Positions 22,970 through 29,823 of a DNA stretch of 64,000 nucleotides are shown one piece after another; positions within the stretch are counted from its first letter, which is position 1; the number at the start of each line of letters is the position of its first letter. The DNA lies in contig NZ_CP015105.1 of the NCBI RefSeq assembly GCF_002214545.1, forward strand, positions 806,001 to 870,000, given 5' to 3'. The DNA comes from Thermococcus thioreducens (GTDB taxonomy: Archaea > Methanobacteriota_B > Thermococci > Thermococcales > Thermococcaceae). Under the pieces are notes generated by a model. That model was not told the DNA's origin and did not search any database. It was given only the letters and a program-made list of their open reading frames with translations. Both the position numbers and the translations under genes were made by a program.

Positions 22970-24289
22970 TCATATTGACCTCCCGCTCTTCTCCAGGCCG
23001 AGAAGATACAGCGAGACGGGAACGGTGTCCTCACCAAGCTCATCCTTCGAGACGTAAAGGGTCGGGAACGGGTAGTGCTTTCTTTTCACCTTTCCGTATT
23101 TCACCTCGATCCCGAAGAACTTTCCCCCCTCCCGCACAACGAGGTCGCACTCCTTGTTCCTGTCGTAGTAAAATCCGGCGAAGGAGTGCTTTTCCCGGAG
23201 TATTGGTTCCTCGATGTGCCAGATGACATGAGAGGCAACGATGTTCTCGACAAGCCATTCAACGTTTCCCTCAACGAACTCAACCGGATTCTCACCGAGA
23301 TAAACCGCCAGTGCCGTCGCTATGAGGGGGCTTTGGAAGACTATCTTTTTCTCCTTCCGGTGGGCGTGCCTCTTTTTGGCTATGTCCCAGGCCTCAAGGG
23401 TGTAAATAACCCTCGCGCTCTCAAGGGTCGAGAGATACTCCCTAACGGTCGGGTGGGAAACTCCGACTTCTCCAGCGAGGGTTACGTAATCAACGCGGTT
23501 GCCCTTGAGCCTGAAAATCGCCTCCAGGAGTTCCCTTGCAATCTCCTCACTCTTTCCAGATTTGGCAATTTCGCCGAGAACCAGCCTTATTATCTCCTCG
23601 TACCGCTCCTCCCCGATGGTTCCAGAGCTTTTGTAGTCCAAAACTGCCTCAGGAAAACCGCCAGTAAGAATGTACGCGTAGAAAAGCCCTTCAAGCTCCT
23701 CGTACCAGGGGAAAACGCTATCAACGGCTGGTTCGTTGTAGGGAAAAGACACATCCGGCAGTTCAGGGTTCATAAACCGCGCAAATTCCCTGAAGTTCAG
23801 GGGGTTGAAGTAGTACTCGTTTCCCTCGATGCCCCTCCCGGGTAAAAGCTCGGCCTCTCTCTTCATCTCTACCGGATTAGAGCCGGTTGCGACTGTAGTT
23901 ATTCTGTCTTCACCGAGTTCTTTGAGGAGGAGACGCCAGCCATCGAGGTACGTTATCTCGTCGAGGAAGACGTAAAGCTCCCCGTGTCTTAGTCTCAGCT
24001 CGTCTATGAAGCCCCTGACCTCTCTCTTTGTGAACCTGTCGCAGGGTATATAGACGACCCTCCTGGGAGCTACACCATCTGAAATCAGCCTTTTTATCAT
24101 GGTCTTAATGTAAAAGCTCTTGCCGGCACGGCGAATTCCTCTGAGGAGCGTTACTGAACCTTCCTTTATCACGATTTCTTTCCTGGGAATCACATCCTCC
24201 ACACGTGAGAGGTCCGGGTCTTCCCTCTCCCAGTCTGCTCCCTTCCACCAGGGGTTGTGCCTGACGAGTTTTACTATCTTAACCGCCAT
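22970..24289 (-). CDS. Archaeal AAA ATPase with DUF4143/nuclease-like C-terminus (ATPase 1 of island)
   Basis: A 439-residue protein. The ATPase domain (about 35-210) has Walker A LLRGIRRAGKSFY, Walker B ELYVFLDEITYL and sensor TGSNP. A winged-helix part follows (VDYVTLAGEVGVSHPTVREYL, near 270). The C-terminal DUF4143 part ends with KECDLVVREGGKFFGIEVKYGK near 395, an Asp...Glu-x-Lys arrangement typical of PD-(D/E)xK nucleases. Such ATPases are expanded in archaea and often behave as accessory genes; their role is unknown. A TATA box at about 24311-24319 makes the message leaderless. Five palindromic units with a 32-bp period start four bases upstream of the ATG, suggesting tight repression. 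Confidence 0.83.
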   Translation of the reverse strand: MAVKIVKLVRHNPWWKGADWEREDPDLSRVEDVIPRKEIVIKEGSVTLLRGIRRAGKSFYIKTMIKRLISDGVAPRRVVYIPCDRFTKREVRGFIDELRLRHGELYVFLDEITYLDGWRLLLKELGEDRITTVATGSNPVEMKREAELLPGRGIEGNEYYFNPLNFREFARFMNPELPDVSFPYNEPAVDSVFPWYEELEGLFYAYILTGGFPEAVLDYKSSGTIGEERYEEIIRLVLGEIAKSGKSEEIARELLEAIFRLKGNRVDYVTLAGEVGVSHPTVREYLSTLESARVIYTLEAWDIAKKRHAHRKEKKIVFQSPLIATALAVYLGENPVEFVEGNVEWLVENIVASHVIWHIEEPILREKHSFAGFYYDRNKECDLVVREGGKFFGIEVKYGKVKRKHYPFPTLYVSKDELGEDTVPVSLYLLGLEKSGRSI

Positions 24290-24292
24290 ATG

Positions 24293-24452
24293 TGAAAGTA
24301 CGCTTTCATGACTTATAAGGTTTGTGAAAGTGCACTTTCACAAAATGTCCCTTTTATGAAAGTTCACTTTCATAGATTGCACCGTTTATGAAAGCCCGCT
24401 TTCATAAAGTGCCCTTTTTGTGGAAGTACTCTCATAAAACGGCACTTCCTGA
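24293..24452. repeat. Array of five 32-bp units, each with a TGAAAG-N4-CTTTCA palindrome
   Basis: Palindromes begin at 24293, 24325, 24357, 24389 and 24421, exactly 32 bp apart. The first four have intact arms TGAAAG and CTTTCA around four bases; the fifth is decayed (TGGAAG...CTCA). The second extends to a perfect 24-bp palindrome (24321-24344, arms TTTGTGAAAGTG). The 16 bases between palindromes are also similar (TGCCCTTTTTG-like), so this is a true tandem repeat. The TATA box of ATPase 1 sits between units 1 and 2. A 32-bp period is about three helical turns, placing all sites on one DNA face, as expected for cooperative repressor binding. Confidence 0.85.
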
Positions 24453-24494: not shown

Positions 24495-25415
24495 TCAGAG
24501 GTGCCTTAAGGCTTCCTCCGCTTTTTCGAACTTCCCTTCCTTTATGTAGGACAGCGCAAGGTAGTACATGCCGAGTCTGCAGAGGTCTTCCAACGTGGGG
24601 TTTTCGAGCTCTATGATGTCCATAATCTTCCTCTTGAAGTCCATCATGGCGTTGTTTACCGCCTCTTCGCTGTAGTTGAGGAGCTTCAGGGCCTGGAGCA
24701 TGGAAAGGACTTCGAGCTTCGCACTGGTGAGGTCTGTGGATGTCCCAATAGTTCTTTCCTCTGTCTGTATTCTCTCGACCGGCTGTGCCTTCTTCTCAGC
24801 GATAGTTGGTTCTGGTTGCTTCAGTTTAACACCAGCGAATTCTTGGAGTATTTTCAGGTACTCCTCGAACTCTTCCCACTTCTTTACTTCCTCGCTCGCT
24901 ACCGTGGTTATTGGGTGGCCCCATTCATCGAAGCCGCCCCACCTGCTAACGAACTTGTCGTGTATCTTCATAGCAAGCGGATATACCCTATCAATCATTT
25001 TGTCGATCTCCTCCTCGTATGTTCTTACTCCTACATCTCTGAGTGCTACCCGCAGCCAACTCACAAACTCGTCCCTTTTCTTGGGGCCCTGGAGAACCTC
25101 TTCCAGCGGTGGGAGGAGGAAACCATCTTTTAGATCGTTTACTCTTTCCGGTTTTAAACTTGCGTTATGTAAATATGCCTTCACGTCCGCTATCTTCACC
25201 CTGCTCAACGCTTCCTTTAATGCTTTTACGAAGTTTTTCCTGTAATCGAGATCACTTATCTTCCCAAACCCGTACTTTGCAATTATTGGCGTTACTAGCA
25301 GGTGCAGGAAGGTCGACCACTTCCCCGCTTCGTAGAACCCTCCCTTCATTCGCTCGTAGTCAGACGGCTCGTGCAGTTTTGGGTTCTTCACCACGGGGAT
25401 CGGGGGATCTACCAT
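24495..25415 (-). pseudogene. Paralogous pair A, C-terminal reading frame (306 aa from first ATG)
   Basis: This frame encodes 306 residues from an ATG at 25415 that lacks a ribosome binding site. The frame stays open back through the AC tract to a TAA at 25436-25434. The last 75 residues (LEVLSMLQALKLLNYSEEAVNNA to the end) are nearly the same as those of pair B and look like a helical repeat (YYLALSYIKEGKFEKAEEAL, TPR-like). The central part is helix-rich with a charged linker (EPTIAEKKAQPVERIQTEER). I do not recognise the family. The N-terminal part is encoded at 25360-25638 in another frame. Adding one AC, or removing two, from the tract at 25425-25434 would fuse the two into about 380 residues. 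Confidence 0.65.
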
Positions 25416-25638
25416 CTCTGACTCGTGTGTGTGTTAGGGCAGCATCTATGGAGATCCGCCCATCGAGATCCAGATCTAAACTCTCCTTTATTGCCTTTGC
25501 TAGTATTTCGGAGCCTGTGGATTTTGGAAAAACTGGTTTATACTCCACATACTTCAGTTTTTTCTTCTCCTTTCCGAACCACCCCTTCGGCACCTCGTAC
25601 TCAAATTCTCCCCACCCCATCTCTGCGATCGGCGCCAT
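25360..25638 (-). pseudogene. Paralogous pair A, N-terminal reading frame (92 aa)
   Basis: It has a good start: GGGGTGA before the ATG at 25638 and a TTTTATAT promoter at about 25671. The first 70 residues resemble the pair B protein at 28168-28389: KGWFG versus KGLFG, an acidic/aromatic middle, and an ending ISIDAALTHT versus DAITAITHT. After the AC tract (25425-25434) the frame runs on for 22 residues (RVRDGRSPDPRGEEPKTARA) that look non-native. The downstream frame needs a +1 shift. It is either a real small protein, the front of a broken gene, or the front of a gene expressed by frameshifting or tract-length change. Confidence 0.6.
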
Positions 25639-25658
25639 TCTTCACCCCTCACAGACTG

Positions 25659-25673
25659 TATGTTAAAAACATA
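25659..25673. promoter_or_regulatory. Inverted repeat in the promoter of pair A
   Basis: TATGTT, three bases, AACATA overlaps the transcription start region between the TTTTATAT box (about 25671-25679) and the ribosome binding site of the 25638 gene. Position and symmetry suit an operator for a dimeric repressor. It differs in sequence from the other palindromes of the island. Confidence 0.45.
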
Positions 25674-25693
25674 TAAAACGGTTGCCTGCCGGC

Positions 25694-26980
25694 TCAGGTG
25701 GAACCCATCAAAAACCTCCACAGGGGGGTCATCTCTATGGTGGTGTCCTTCCCTTTTACCCTGCCCGCCACGTCCCATGTAATCAGCAGGACGTTTTTAA
25801 ATCCGAATTCTCTCGAAGCCTTTCTGAGAGCGTTCACCTCACGATTAAACGTCTCTTCTCCGCTGATATCGTAGCTCACCTGGATCAGTGTCTCCTCCTC
25901 AGGCAGGACGAAATCAACCTCCCAGTTCTTCCCGAGGGCATAATTAACTTCCTTTCTCCTCCGGAGGAGCTCGATGAAAACGGCGTTCTCCATAAGCCTC
26001 CCCATGTTCTCGCTGAACTTCACGCTAAGAAACGTCAAAAAGGACGTATCAACGAAGTATATCTTTCTGGGGTGCTGCATCCTGAGCCTCACCTTGGGGG
26101 AATACACCTCAAGGGGAAATGCAAAGTAGCACTCCTCAAGGTACCTCAGGTAGCTGGCGAGCGTTGATTTGGATATTGAGTAGCCCATGCTCCTCATAGT
26201 TTTCGCGGTTTTGCTCAGGCTCACGTACTCGGAGTTAAGGAGAAGTCGGATGAAAGCTCTGAGCTCTTCCGGGTTTCTGATTGAGTACCTCTCCACGACA
26301 TCGAGGGCTATTACCGTGTTGAAGTAGTCCATAACTATCAACCGCTTGACCCTCACGTCGCTGGTTAGAACCACCTCTGGGAAACCTCCGTATAGGAGGT
26401 ACTCCCTCAGCAGGTTGAGTAAGGCTGGCTTTTTTGGGCTGAAATCTAAATTCTCCGGCACCTCAAAACCCTTGAACCTCAGGAACTCCCGAAAGCTCAG
26501 GGGAAAAACCTCGAACGTCAGGGCCCTGCCTCTGAGTGAGGTGGGGATTTCTCTGCTGGAGAGCTTTGAGGAAGAACCGCTTAAAAAAAGCCTCACGTCT
26601 CTCCTCGAATCATGGACTCTCCTCACCCACGAGTCCCAGCCCGGAATGTTCTGTATCTCGTCCAGAAAAAGGTACAGCCCATCTTTTTTTCCGTAGAGCT
26701 CCTCTATCGTTGGTATGAGCTCCGTTAGAGTTTCGGTTCTCTTTTCGAGCCTTTCATCTTCAAAGTTGATGTAGAATATTTCCTCCCTCGGAGCTTTTTT
26801 TGACAGCTCGTTGATGAGCTGGAACATCAGGTACGTTTTGCCTGACCTCCGGCAGCCGGCAAAGGTTACAACCTTTCTCGGTTTATCCGGTATCAGGGAG
26901 ACATCAAAGTCCCTCTCGACGAGCTCGGGCGTCCAGGTTTCCTGCCACTCCACTAAGACCTTGGCCAAATCCTCCCTCAT
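25694..26980 (-). CDS. Archaeal AAA ATPase with DUF4143-like C-terminus (ATPase 2 of island)
   Basis: A 428-residue protein. Walker A is TFAGCRRSGKTYL near residue 40, Walker B is GLYLFLDEIQNIPGW near 105, and the sensor is LFLSGSSSKLSS near 130. The middle (about 235-300) is a winged-helix region (YVSLSKTAKTMRSMGYSISKSTLASYL). The C-terminal part has YALGKNWEVDFVLPEEETLIQVSYDIS near 350, where the usual Glu-Val-Lys of the nuclease motif reads Gln-Val-Ser. If the domain is a nuclease in relatives, this copy may be inactive. TTTATAAA at about 27002-27009 gives a leaderless start, with a perfect palindrome directly upstream. It lies 55 bases after pair A on the same strand. Confidence 0.83.
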   Translation of the reverse strand: MREDLAKVLVEWQETWTPELVERDFDVSLIPDKPRKVVTFAGCRRSGKTYLMFQLINELSKKAPREEIFYINFEDERLEKRTETLTELIPTIEELYGKKDGLYLFLDEIQNIPGWDSWVRRVHDSRRDVRLFLSGSSSKLSSREIPTSLRGRALTFEVFPLSFREFLRFKGFEVPENLDFSPKKPALLNLLREYLLYGGFPEVVLTSDVRVKRLIVMDYFNTVIALDVVERYSIRNPEELRAFIRLLLNSEYVSLSKTAKTMRSMGYSISKSTLASYLRYLEECYFAFPLEVYSPKVRLRMQHPRKIYFVDTSFLTFLSVKFSENMGRLMENAVFIELLRRRKEVNYALGKNWEVDFVLPEEETLIQVSYDISGEETFNREVNALRKASREFGFKNVLLITWDVAGRVKGKDTTIEMTPLWRFLMGST

Positions 26981-27000
26981 GGAGATTAATACCCCCTCAT

Positions 27001-27043
27001 CATTTATAAACCTTGTCCAGTATGCTGGACAACCATTTATAAA
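27001..27043. promoter_or_regulatory. Promoter of ATPase 2: palindrome flanked by direct CATTTATAAA repeats
   Basis: TTGTCCAG (27013-27020), four bases, CTGGACAA (27025-27032) is a perfect inverted repeat. The same ten bases CATTTATAAA flank it at 27001-27010 and 27034-27043. The near copy is the TATA box of ATPase 2, about 25 bases from its ATG. The far copy may serve an extra start or the rightward relic at 27129. A repressor bound here would sit on the BRE side of the promoter. Confidence 0.6.
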
Positions 27044-27128
27044 TTGCTGTTCTGCACGTTTACCCTTCCCGAAATCAGAATGCTGTAGGAAAAGTATTAT
27101 ACTCTGTCAACATCATTTTTAGCAGCCA

Positions 27129-27275
27129 ATGTTCGTGGACAGAGAGCTGGAGCTGGAGTTCCTTGAGAGGAAGGGGAAGGAAAGAACCCCAGCTCGTGGC
27201 AGAAGGCCGAAAAAATCGATGAAAAAAGGGGAAGGCATGATGGACCTGGAAGACCTTGAGGCGCTGGTGCGCTAA
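27129..27275 (+). pseudogene. Relic of an ATPase_2-type archaeal ATPase (N-terminal fragment)
   Basis: A 48-codon frame begins MFVDRELELEFLERK, the typical start of ATPase_2/DUF234 proteins (compare KFIDREPELEFLRSR in the gene at 28465). It then decays: RGRRPKKSMKK stands where YGRRRIGKTYILQK would form the Walker A loop. About 1.2 kb of expected sequence is missing, and the last residues (MMDLEDLEALVR) may come from the gene's far end. It lies in opposite orientation between ATPase 2 and pair B, and its last bases meet the pair B stop. I take it as a deletion remnant. Confidence 0.6.
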
Positions 27276-28126
27276 AGCCCCCTGAAGACGTCCTCCGCTT
27301 TTTCGAACTTTCCGTTCCTTATGTAGGACAGCGCGAGGTAGTACAGGCCGAGCCTGTAAACGTCCTCGGGCGTCGGGTAATCGAGCTCCGTTATCTTCCT
27401 AATCTTCTTCTCAAGGTCCTTAACCGCGTTGTTCACGGCCTCTTCGCTGTAGTTCAGGAGCTTCAATGCCTGGAGCATCGTCAGAACCTCAACGGTAAGC
27501 GAGTTCCCGCTTTCCTTTCCGTTATCCCCCTTCTTCCCCTGGACTGCCTTGGGACGCTCCACACTCCTTTTGGCTCCGGTGAAGTCTTCGAGGAACCTGA
27601 TGAGTTCCTTGTATGCGGGGTGCTTCATGACGGCCTTTTCGCTGGGGCTTGCCTGCATGATCTCCTTGAAACTCTCCTTGTCTGCAAACTTCTTCACGAT
27701 CTCGTAGGATTTTTTTAGTGCGTAGGCGATGTCCTCATCCGGTATGAGGATCTTGTATGCGTGGTAGAACTCGTCTCTCAGTGCCTCCGCAAGTTTTTCC
27801 ACGTTCTCCTCGTTCTCGAATAGTTCGTCCGGCTCCGGTATGACGTACGCATTCGGCTCCGGATCTGTTTTTATATGTCTTGCCGCTTCTTCGTCATTCA
27901 CGTCGCCGGGTATTGCGTGCACCTTCTTCTTCGCCACCTTCGTGAGCGCCCGCCCCGTCACGTGGTGCGGGTCCGGATCATCCACGAACCTGCCGAATAT
28001 GCCGGTTTCCCTGTGCTTATACGTGGCGGCGAACGTGGCAAGCCCGATCGTTGCCCTCAGCAGTTCCAGTTTCCTGTGGTAGTCCCATATCCTCCACGGC
28101 GGTATGTCTTCGCCCCCCTCGAGCAC
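27272..28126 (-). pseudogene. Paralogous pair B, C-terminal reading frame (284 aa from a GTG)
   Basis: The nominal GTG start at 28126 has no ribosome binding site. In the same frame coding-like sequence continues upstream to 28186 (WWEHAIREKTNGNEY, then RRVYLV). The last 75 residues match pair A closely (TMLQALKLLNYSEEAVNNA, YYLALSYIRNGKFEKAEDVF), ending in a TPR-like hairpin. The first 200 residues differ from pair A and contain DIPPWRIWDYHRKLELLRAT. Pair B is thus a divergent paralogue with a conserved tail, like a variable-front/constant-end family. Removing one AC, or adding two, at 28187-28194 would join it to the 28168-28389 frame. Function unknown. Confidence 0.65.
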
Positions 28127-28167
28127 GAGATATACGCGCCTGTACTCATTCCCATTCGTTTTTTCCC

Positions 28168-28389
28168 TTATTGCGTGTTCCCACCAGTGTGTGTTATGGC
28201 AGTAATTGCGTCGTTCGGTATGTCCAGGCCCCGGACGACCGCCGCTGCGATCCTATCGGTCATTCTTTCGTATTCTCTTTCCGGATCCCTCACCACCACG
28301 TACTCCGCTTCCCACTCCTTCACCGGCCCGAACAGCCCCTTCTTCTCCCTGATCTTTACCTTCCTCGGCTCCTTCTTCATCAGCAGCAT
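28168..28389 (-). pseudogene. Paralogous pair B, N-terminal reading frame (73 aa)
   Basis: The start at 28389 has GGTGG upstream; a second in-frame ATG lies three codons later. The protein (KKGLFGPVKEWEAEYVVVRD, then RMTDRIAAAVVRGLDI) is basic then acidic and resembles the front of pair A. It ends ITHTGGNTQ shortly after the AC tract (28187-28194), where the pair A frame also breaks. The downstream frame is offset by -1, whereas in pair A it is offset by +1. Both offsets disappear when the AC count is a multiple of three. Confidence 0.6.
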
Positions 28390-28464: not shown

Positions 28465-29823
28465 CTAAAAGTCCCTCAGGTCCCAAACCATCCAGCCGTC
28501 ATCCATCAGCTCTTCCTTACCCTCAAGGTGCTTTGCCACGAGACCATAGCCCTTCTCCCAGTCATCGAGACCGACAAGCCCGGCCTTCCGCTCCAGATCC
28601 TTCAAGATTTCCCGTGCTTCCCTCTCTTTCAGCTCTTTCCACTTCACTTCCACGAAGAGAACTTTTTTCTCCCTCTCATTCAGCGCCACAATGTCAATCT
28701 CCTCCCCTTTATGCCACCACCTTCCAATCCTCGTGAACCTGAAGGGTATCTTTCCGGCCCTGTTGAGCTCAACTAAGAACTGCCTTGCTATTTCCTCGAA
28801 AACGAAGCCAAGGTATTCATTAAACTTGGGCTTGATGTCCTCAACGACGTCAAACCCCATCTCGATCTCGCTTTTCCTCGGATAGACGAAGCGGAACCAG
28901 AAGTTGAAGAGCCTGTCGGTTATTTTGTAGATGCCCCTTCCCCGTCCCACGAGGGGCTTTTCCTCGCTTATGTATCCCATCCCCTCAAGGACGTTGAGGT
29001 ACTTGCCGAGCGAGTTAAGGTCAACCTTAGCTCTGTCGGCTATCTGGCCGAAGCGGTTGTAGCCGAGTGCTATCGCCCTCAGTATGGAGAAGTACCTCGA
29101 AACATCCCTCAGCTCCTGTTTAAGAAGGTATTTTGGCTCATCATAGTATTTCGCACCCTTCGACAGCAGAAGAACTCTTAGATTGTCCCAGAAGTCAAGC
29201 TCTGGATCGTAATCAGCCCAGTACTGTGGGACTCCTCCAAAGACGGAATAGACGTGGACGGCCTCCTCGGTGCTTAGGGGGTGGAACTTCCTTACGTTGA
29301 AAAAGTCCATTTCCTCAACTTTCCACGCCCCGGTTCTTCTTCCGTATATCGGTGACTTTGCTGAAAGAACGCCCTCCATGAACGAAACCAGCGAACCGCA
29401 GAGTATCAGCATTATCTTTGTATTGGAGAGATGCATATCCCAGTACTTCTGGAGGACGCTGAGAAAGTCCCTTTGGGCTTTCGCTATGTACTGAACCTCA
29501 TCTATTACCACTACAAGCCTTTCAGAGCTTTTTCCTGCGAGATAAGTGAAGAAAGCCCTCCAGTTCTGAAATGGATTCTCCATGAGGAACGGGTCTTTGA
29601 AATACTCGGCGAGCCTTTCGGAGAAGTCGTCGAGGATGGTCTCGCTCTCCTCGGCGAGCAGATAGACCCCATCAACTTCGGAAAGGAACTTCTGAAGGAT
29701 GTATGTTTTTCCTATCCTCCTCCGTCCGTAGAGGATTATCAGCTCGGGCCTTTCAGAACTGTATCTGCTCCTCAGGAACTCCAGCTCCGGCTCGCGGTCA
29801 ATAAACTTACTCACGAGTATCAT
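28465..29823 (-). CDS. Archaeal ATPase_2/DUF234 ATPase with nuclease-like C-terminus (ATPase 3 of island)
   Basis: A 452-residue protein starting with the family signature KFIDREPELEFLRSRY. Walker A is LYGRRRIGKTYIL near 35, Walker B is LVVVIDEVQYIAK near 105, and the sensor is LILCGSLVSFMEG near 138. A winged helix follows near 265 (GYNRFGQIADRAKVDLNSLGKYL). The C-terminal DUF234 domain ends with GEEIDIVALNEREKKVLFVEVKWK near 385, an Asp...Glu-x-Lys set typical of PD-(D/E)xK nucleases. Its start codon lies in the middle of an inverted repeat, and TATA at about 29845 implies a leaderless message. It is the upstream-most gene of the island on this strand. Role unknown; such families are discussed as mobile or conflict-related. 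Confidence 0.85.
   Translation of the reverse strand: MILVSKFIDREPELEFLRSRYSSERPELIILYGRRRIGKTYILQKFLSEVDGVYLLAEESETILDDFSERLAEYFKDPFLMENPFQNWRAFFTYLAGKSSERLVVVIDEVQYIAKAQRDFLSVLQKYWDMHLSNTKIMLILCGSLVSFMEGVLSAKSPIYGRRTGAWKVEEMDFFNVRKFHPLSTEEAVHVYSVFGGVPQYWADYDPELDFWDNLRVLLLSKGAKYYDEPKYLLKQELRDVSRYFSILRAIALGYNRFGQIADRAKVDLNSLGKYLNVLEGMGYISEEKPLVGRGRGIYKITDRLFNFWFRFVYPRKSEIEMGFDVVEDIKPKFNEYLGFVFEEIARQFLVELNRAGKIPFRFTRIGRWWHKGEEIDIVALNEREKKVLFVEVKWKELKEREAREILKDLERKAGLVGLDDWEKGYGLVAKHLEGKEELMDDGWMVWDLRDF

Follow-up and report, generated by a model that had tools for sequence, protein, structure and literature searches.

Genes divided at short AC repeats behind AAA+ ATPases in Thermococcus thioreducens: probable phase-variable loci of a Thermococcaceae family

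Two divided genes and their partner ATPases

The DNA considered here, called the window, is a stretch of 64,000 nucleotides (nt) from Thermococcus thioreducens (contig NZ_CP015105.1, positions 806,001 to 870,000). On its minus strand lie two related genes, A and B, each behind a gene encoding an AAA+ ATPase and each divided into two reading frames that meet at a short AC repeat. A gene of this kind is called ON when its repeat tract leaves the downstream half in frame with the upstream half and OFF when it does not. The parts of the two loci, numbered from the first letter of the window, are as follows (aa, amino acids).

25694..26980, minus strand: partner ATPase of A, AAA_14/DUF4143 (AAA_14, 2.7e-38; PADLOC PDC-S01, 7.4e-110)
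25360..25638, minus strand: N-terminal frame of A, 92 aa, with about 68 codons coding before the tract; motif KGWFGKEKKK
Directly 5' of the N-terminal ATG of A, minus strand: ribosome-binding-like GAGGGGTGA, from reading of the sequence
25425..25434, minus strand: (AC)5 tract of A, proposed slip site; OFF, shift +1
24495..25430, minus strand: downstream frame of A, HTHESEM... to stop
24501..24746, minus strand: C-terminal module of A (profile A1, E 1.1e-32)
28465..29823, minus strand: partner ATPase of B, ATPase_2/DUF234 (DUF234, 8e-38; PADLOC PDC-S27, 3.8e-51)
28168..28389, minus strand: N-terminal frame of B, 73 aa; KKGLFGPVKEW
28187..28194, minus strand: (AC)4 tract of B, proposed slip site; OFF, shift +2 (the relative G037 has (AC)6, ON)
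27272..28193, minus strand: downstream frame of B, THWWEHAIREK... to stop
27278..27523, minus strand: C-terminal module of B (profile A1, E 3.9e-32)

On the plus strand the tracts appear as (GT)5 and (GT)4, equivalent to (AC)5 and (AC)4 on the coding strand. The minus strand reads CTA(AC)5GAG across the break in A and ATA(AC)4TGG across that in B. The upstream halves end in ...ALTHTR... (A) and ...AITHTG... (B), the downstream halves begin with HTHESEM... and THWWEH..., and the junctions lie about 68 and about 65 codons, respectively, from the first ATG. A first-pass annotation had placed the meeting of the frames at these tracts, with a +1 change needed in A and a -1 change in B; its coordinates and frame logic are right, the change in B being equivalent to +2. 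Ribosome-binding-like sequences precede the N-terminal starts (GAGGGGTGAAG-ATG in A, GGTGGTAAGACG-ATG in B), and nothing comparable can be read before the first starts of the downstream frames of A and B, as the annotation had also remarked. Its description of the last 75 residues as nearly the same is slightly strong: the C-terminal modules are indeed related, at 61% identity over 85 aa. The gap between ATPase and following gene is about 56 nt for A and 75 nt for B.

Repeat number among close relatives

In a close relative of T. thioreducens, G037, the ortholog of B has an (AC)6 tract and hence runs as one uninterrupted frame (...TAITHTHWWEHAIREK...). A fused frame is what the annotation had anticipated for a repeat count that is a multiple of three. 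The two genomes are 94% identical over 451 nt around the tract, with (AC)6 facing (AC)4, and the only further gaps found are two compensating 1-nt gaps near the start. Both genomes have (AC)5 in A, which is OFF in each. In G092 and G009, each with (AC)5, the gene is broken at the matching place.

Elsewhere among close relatives, tract length varies between flanks that still code. One set of alleles, at 90-94% DNA identity, runs from (AC)6, which is ON (L135 of G038), through (AC)5 (L088 of G071) and (AC)4 (L089 of G064) to (AC)3 (L105 of G021). L056 is ON and L059 OFF, shorter by 4 nt; L122 is ON and L110, L119 and L121 are OFF, again by -4 nt; L116 is ON and L071 and L120 are OFF at a TA tract; L125 is ON at a second tract, and L114, L115 and L128 are OFF. 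Repeat number differs, then, between close relatives and sets the frame, and both ON and OFF alleles are present, as compared between species. A short repeat stands at the matching protein position in about 50 relatives. The annotation had offered a length-variable switch, frameshift expression or a shared ancestral weakness as explanations of the breaks, and these observations support the first.

Phase was tallied for 52 distinct alleles that bear a tract and have confidently assigned frames: 8 are ON, 19 would need a +1 shift and 25 a +2 shift. The excess of OFF over ON (P 0.003) is indicative only, since only one tract was counted at each locus, with preference given to OFF ones. Such an excess would fit a costly effector. 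In the T. thioreducens genome itself, every tract-bearing member examined is OFF: A, B and those at genome positions 391181, 442198, 466130, 1130394 and 1205537.

Some members have two tracts. The one at 391181 (L126), which has (AC)5, carries two AC tracts with a frame break at each; the middle piece is out of frame, the two ends share a frame, and no ATPase is seen upstream. L122, L110 and L121 have, beyond their first tract, another CA tract about 300 nt past the ATPase stop that likewise differs in length from one relative to the next. These are possibly two switches in series.

Both halves of the OFF genes are under purifying selection. The ratio of nonsynonymous to synonymous substitution rates (dN/dS) for A, which is OFF in T. 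thioreducens as well as in G037, is 0.29 in the upstream half and 0.22 in the downstream half. For B, compared between the same genomes, it is 0.61 in the N-terminal half (61 codons only) and 0.21 in the downstream half, and other pairs in which both alleles are OFF give 0.17-0.41. Such low ratios indicate that both halves are maintained, which would not be seen in a simple pseudogene.

Position and rarity of the tracts

The tracts keep to one place in the locus. When 47 loci were lined up by the stop codon of the ATPase, dinucleotide tracts of 8 nt or longer were most frequent 150-350 nt downstream, where there are 29 of them as against 1.8 expected from the ATPase frames of the same loci (12 per 61,455 nt; Poisson P about 1e-24). 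Runs of at least seven A peak in the same interval.

They are also rare elsewhere. In the window, only nine dinucleotide tracts reach 8 nt. Three are AC tracts, among them the two at the junctions of A and B. Genome-wide pattern searches for simple-sequence repeats (SSRs) found (AC)>=5 at only two sites in the 2.07-Mb T. thioreducens genome, A and the member at 391181. In 94 Thermococcaceae genomes there are about 22 such sites, some 14 of which fall within genes of the family's architecture; the others include isoleucyl-tRNA synthetase (IleRS), the end of a HerA-like gene and intergenic sites.

Changes of frame gather at the tracts as well. In pairwise alignments of the tract-bearing genes, called effectors from here on, 57 of 170 frame-breaking insertions or deletions (indels) involve tracts, which account for 2.4% of the sequence. 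The share is conservative, because many of the supposedly frame-breaking indels off the tracts are alignment pairs that cancel each other. In the ATPases, none of 41 such indels falls at a tract. Among the genes of the window, ACA accounts for 16% of threonine codons and TAT for 26% of tyrosine codons, so pure repeat runs go against codon bias.

The gene family

Searched with the downstream half of B, the T. thioreducens genome and the 94 Thermococcaceae genomes yielded homologues in 30 genomes. A profile built on the C-terminal 85 aa (profile A1) recognized about 120 places in 48 of the 94 genomes and nothing in the 21 other genomes of the class outside the Thermococcaceae. Of two scans of a genome contigs database, the first, with B as query, gave no match, and the second, with an alignment of the TA-type subfamily, gave 12 Thermococcus/Thermococcaceae records. 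Named family records come from Thermococcus and from metagenome-assembled genomes of Thermococcaceae; plasmid, phage and IMG/VR searches brought up no relatives. The family is found in the Thermococcaceae only.

About 80 loci were retrieved, and their frames were traced by a Viterbi decoder of codon usage trained on the window. In most loci with sufficient upstream sequence, an ATPase of the DUF234/ATPase_2 or AAA_14/DUF4143 type ends just upstream on the same strand. The type of tract goes with the subfamily, (AC)n coding THTH, (TA)n coding YIYI or A7-8 coding KK, and the position is unchanged. The junctions of A and B align with each other, and the homologues are not all pairs of overlapping genes; neither objection foreseen in the annotation holds.

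An alignment of the family (A2) has a nearly invariant block, GIDIEPELEEFRQFLAEISGKK, between highly variable cores and several exchangeable C-terminal modules, and the family looks mosaic, as though shuffled by recombination. In three short members (L061, L070 and L105) the core is deleted and the N-terminal part is fused straight to the C-terminal module. In L027/L066 (G043) the C-terminal module is joined to another protein, which may resemble the N-terminal domains of the VAT/Cdc48 ATPase. This arrangement suggests that the module may be a mobile docking module, and we suspect that it is the part that docks to the ATPase.

Predicted structure and partners

AlphaFold2 returned confident models of two members. 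The TA-type member L055 (338 aa) was modelled as mostly helical, with a predicted local distance difference test (pLDDT) score of 89.4; the residues encoded by the tract belong to a small hairpin lying between the N-terminal helices and the core. For the intact B of G037 (373 aa) the pLDDT is 83.7, and the tract lies in the connector, at residues 66-69. Foldseek comparison of the two models with the PDB returned nothing at E <= 0.001. Searches of Pfam, NCBIfam, PADLOC, PHROGs and PDB profiles gave the effector no family identity, and the family and PADLOC searches found in it no methyltransferase, nuclease or any known domain. Its TPR-like C-terminal matches fell below the cut-off and were set aside, as were its best PDB-profile matches, designed helical repeats that were taken as compositional. 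The predicted fold is new.

The partner ATPases match the PADLOC profiles PDC-S01 and PDC-S27, which stand for candidate defence systems rather than proven ones, and a role in defence or conflict is on that account a reasonable guess.

A further AAA_14/DUF4143 ATPase is encoded at 22970-24289 in the window. Directly upstream of it, at 24294-24403, are four perfect GAAAGNNNNCTTTC palindromes at an exact spacing of 32 nt, with none elsewhere in the window. They look like an operator array.

Phase variation and its alternatives

A and B are probably phase-variable genes, that is, simple-sequence contingency loci, acting through slipped-strand mispairing. Each, behind its partner ATPase, would encode a protein of about 370 aa with a short repeat in the segment linking the N-terminal domain to the core. 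Mispairing during replication would add or remove repeat units and so bring the downstream frame in or out. In phase, the gene would yield the full-length protein; out of phase, nothing would be produced beyond an N-terminal peptide of about 70-90 aa, as the downstream frame has no ribosome binding site. We infer that slippage is the mutational route, that it is reversible within a population, that function is lost in the OFF state and that the protein works together with the ATPase as a costly effector of defence or conflict.

Thermococcales have EndoMS/NucS in place of MutS-MutL. The T. thioreducens genome has a match to NucS/EndoMS at 2.3e-44 and one to MutS_V that is weak and partial, in a 620-aa frame. 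EndoMS/NucS is reported to be unable to correct indels (PMC8228993), so even tracts of 8-12 nt may perhaps be mutable enough, and Pyrococcus PolB and PolD slip in vitro (PMC4134008).

Several observations weigh against phase variation. The variation in tract length is seen between species-level genomes only, and fewer than one third of the alleles are ON (the 8 of 52, in a tally whose choice of tract leans to OFF). Neither of the two close orthologs of A is ON, both having (AC)5. The tracts of some ON alleles are interrupted, which fits one-way decay too, and L057, L096, L102, L104 and L122 have further lesions off the tract. The N-terminal half of B has the higher dN/dS noted above, and the tracts are short beside those of classical bacterial contingency loci.

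Decay at mutable sites is the serious rival, though an unlikely one. Perhaps these are accessory genes under weak selection that break first at their mutable repeats, the OFF alleles being pseudogenes and the ON alleles survivors. The preponderance of OFF alleles and the extra lesions or internal deletions of some members would be as expected. However, both halves of OFF alleles are still uninterrupted for about 300 codons, dN/dS being mostly 0.2-0.4, and A is conserved although it is OFF at equal length in two species. Nor would decay account for tracts that are concentrated at one position and retained against codon bias, for adjoining ATPases with few tracts and no tract indels, or for ON and OFF alternating inside allele sets. 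The relaxed constraint and scattered lesions of a pseudogene are not what A and B exhibit, and only a minority of family members carry further lesions. The shared ancestral weakness of the annotation is partly right: the tract site is conserved in the family, but codon choice and recurrence favour its retention as a switch.

Programmed recoding, in which ribosomal frameshifting or slippage of RNA polymerase on the repeats would yield full-length protein from OFF alleles, is improbable. The position of the tracts is conserved, they could re-pair after a slip of 2 nt, and A7-8 is plausible for transcriptional slippage. A single recoding mechanism is nevertheless to be rejected: the OFF alleles divide about evenly between those requiring a +1 shift (19) and those requiring +2 (25). 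Moreover, the tracts are unrelated in sequence between subfamilies (AC, TA or A), intact in-frame orthologs exist, and neither one direction of shift nor a common slippery heptamer is found. The annotation's suggestion of frameshift expression is for these reasons unlikely.

That each locus consists of two separate overlapping genes is very improbable. Both frames are open and conserved, as two genes would require, but B is fused in G037 at the identical locus and synteny, as are the relatives L135, L132 and L046; the downstream frames are without a ribosome binding site and, in many cases, without a start close by; and AlphaFold models the fused protein as a single, largely well-ordered chain. 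Sequencing or assembly error, for which repeats are classical sites, is hardly credible, because the pattern recurs in many genomes, complete as well as draft, with neighbouring genes intact, in tracts of just 8-12 nt, and the window comes from a genome in a single 99.9% complete contig.

Relation to known systems

If phase variation does operate here, the loci may, more tentatively, belong to a multi-copy two-gene defence or conflict system of the Thermococcaceae, composed of an AAA+ ATPase and a mosaic effector of new fold, with hypermutable short repeats as the switch of the effector. Cell lineages might then differ in which of up to about seven loci are ON and which are OFF, and the whole could be the first archaeal SSR "phasome", enabled by indel-blind EndoMS/NucS repair. 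Simple-repeat phase variation has been studied almost only in bacteria, chiefly host-associated ones. With about 120 members, both ON and OFF alleles and a switch at a conserved position, the family would bring the principle to free-living hyperthermophilic archaea, would suggest that organisms reliant on EndoMS/NucS can run contingency loci on very short tracts, and would flag a switchable candidate conflict system. It would also be a warning for annotation, as such genes will be called pseudogenes or split open reading frames. Text searches of the open-access literature turned up repeat-mediated phase variation neither in Thermococcales nor in any other archaeon, and a 2025 review lists archaea only as a future expansion (PMC11868660).

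Among systems already described, VARTIG is likewise restricted to Thermococcales, mosaic, highly variable and conflict-like (PMC8416519). It is built on Ig-domain proteins, with recombination proposed, and the text of that paper mentions neither frameshifts nor ATPases (PMC8416519); identity with VARTIG was rejected. The present family has no Ig domain. GeneTack resembles this work in detecting conserved frame transitions systematically, with phase-variation clusters among them, and its main text names no Thermococcus or Pyrococcus cluster (PMC3711429). The PADLOC candidates PDC-S01 and PDC-S27 are matched by both partner ATPases but differ in that the effector has no PADLOC match.

We know of no phase-variable partner gene for those single-gene candidates. 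Phase-variable genes of phage defence include pglX of Pgl/BREX and phase-variable restriction-modification genes. If the guess of defence is right, the likeness is a switchable costly component beside an ATPase, but the effector here has no methyltransferase, nuclease or known domain that was found.

The bacterial SSR contingency loci of Haemophilus and Neisseria, including type III methyltransferase phasevarions, offer parallels: an intragenic repeat count sets the frame, ON and OFF alleles occur among relatives, and tract position is conserved in a gene family. The loci described here differ in being archaeal, in having dinucleotide tracts of only 4-7 units or A7-8, in the unmatched fold of the protein, in a tract type that varies by subfamily at one protein position, and in a background of EndoMS/NucS rather than MutS-MutL. 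The mechanism itself has bacterial precedent; what is new is the domain of life, the gene family and the predicted fold.

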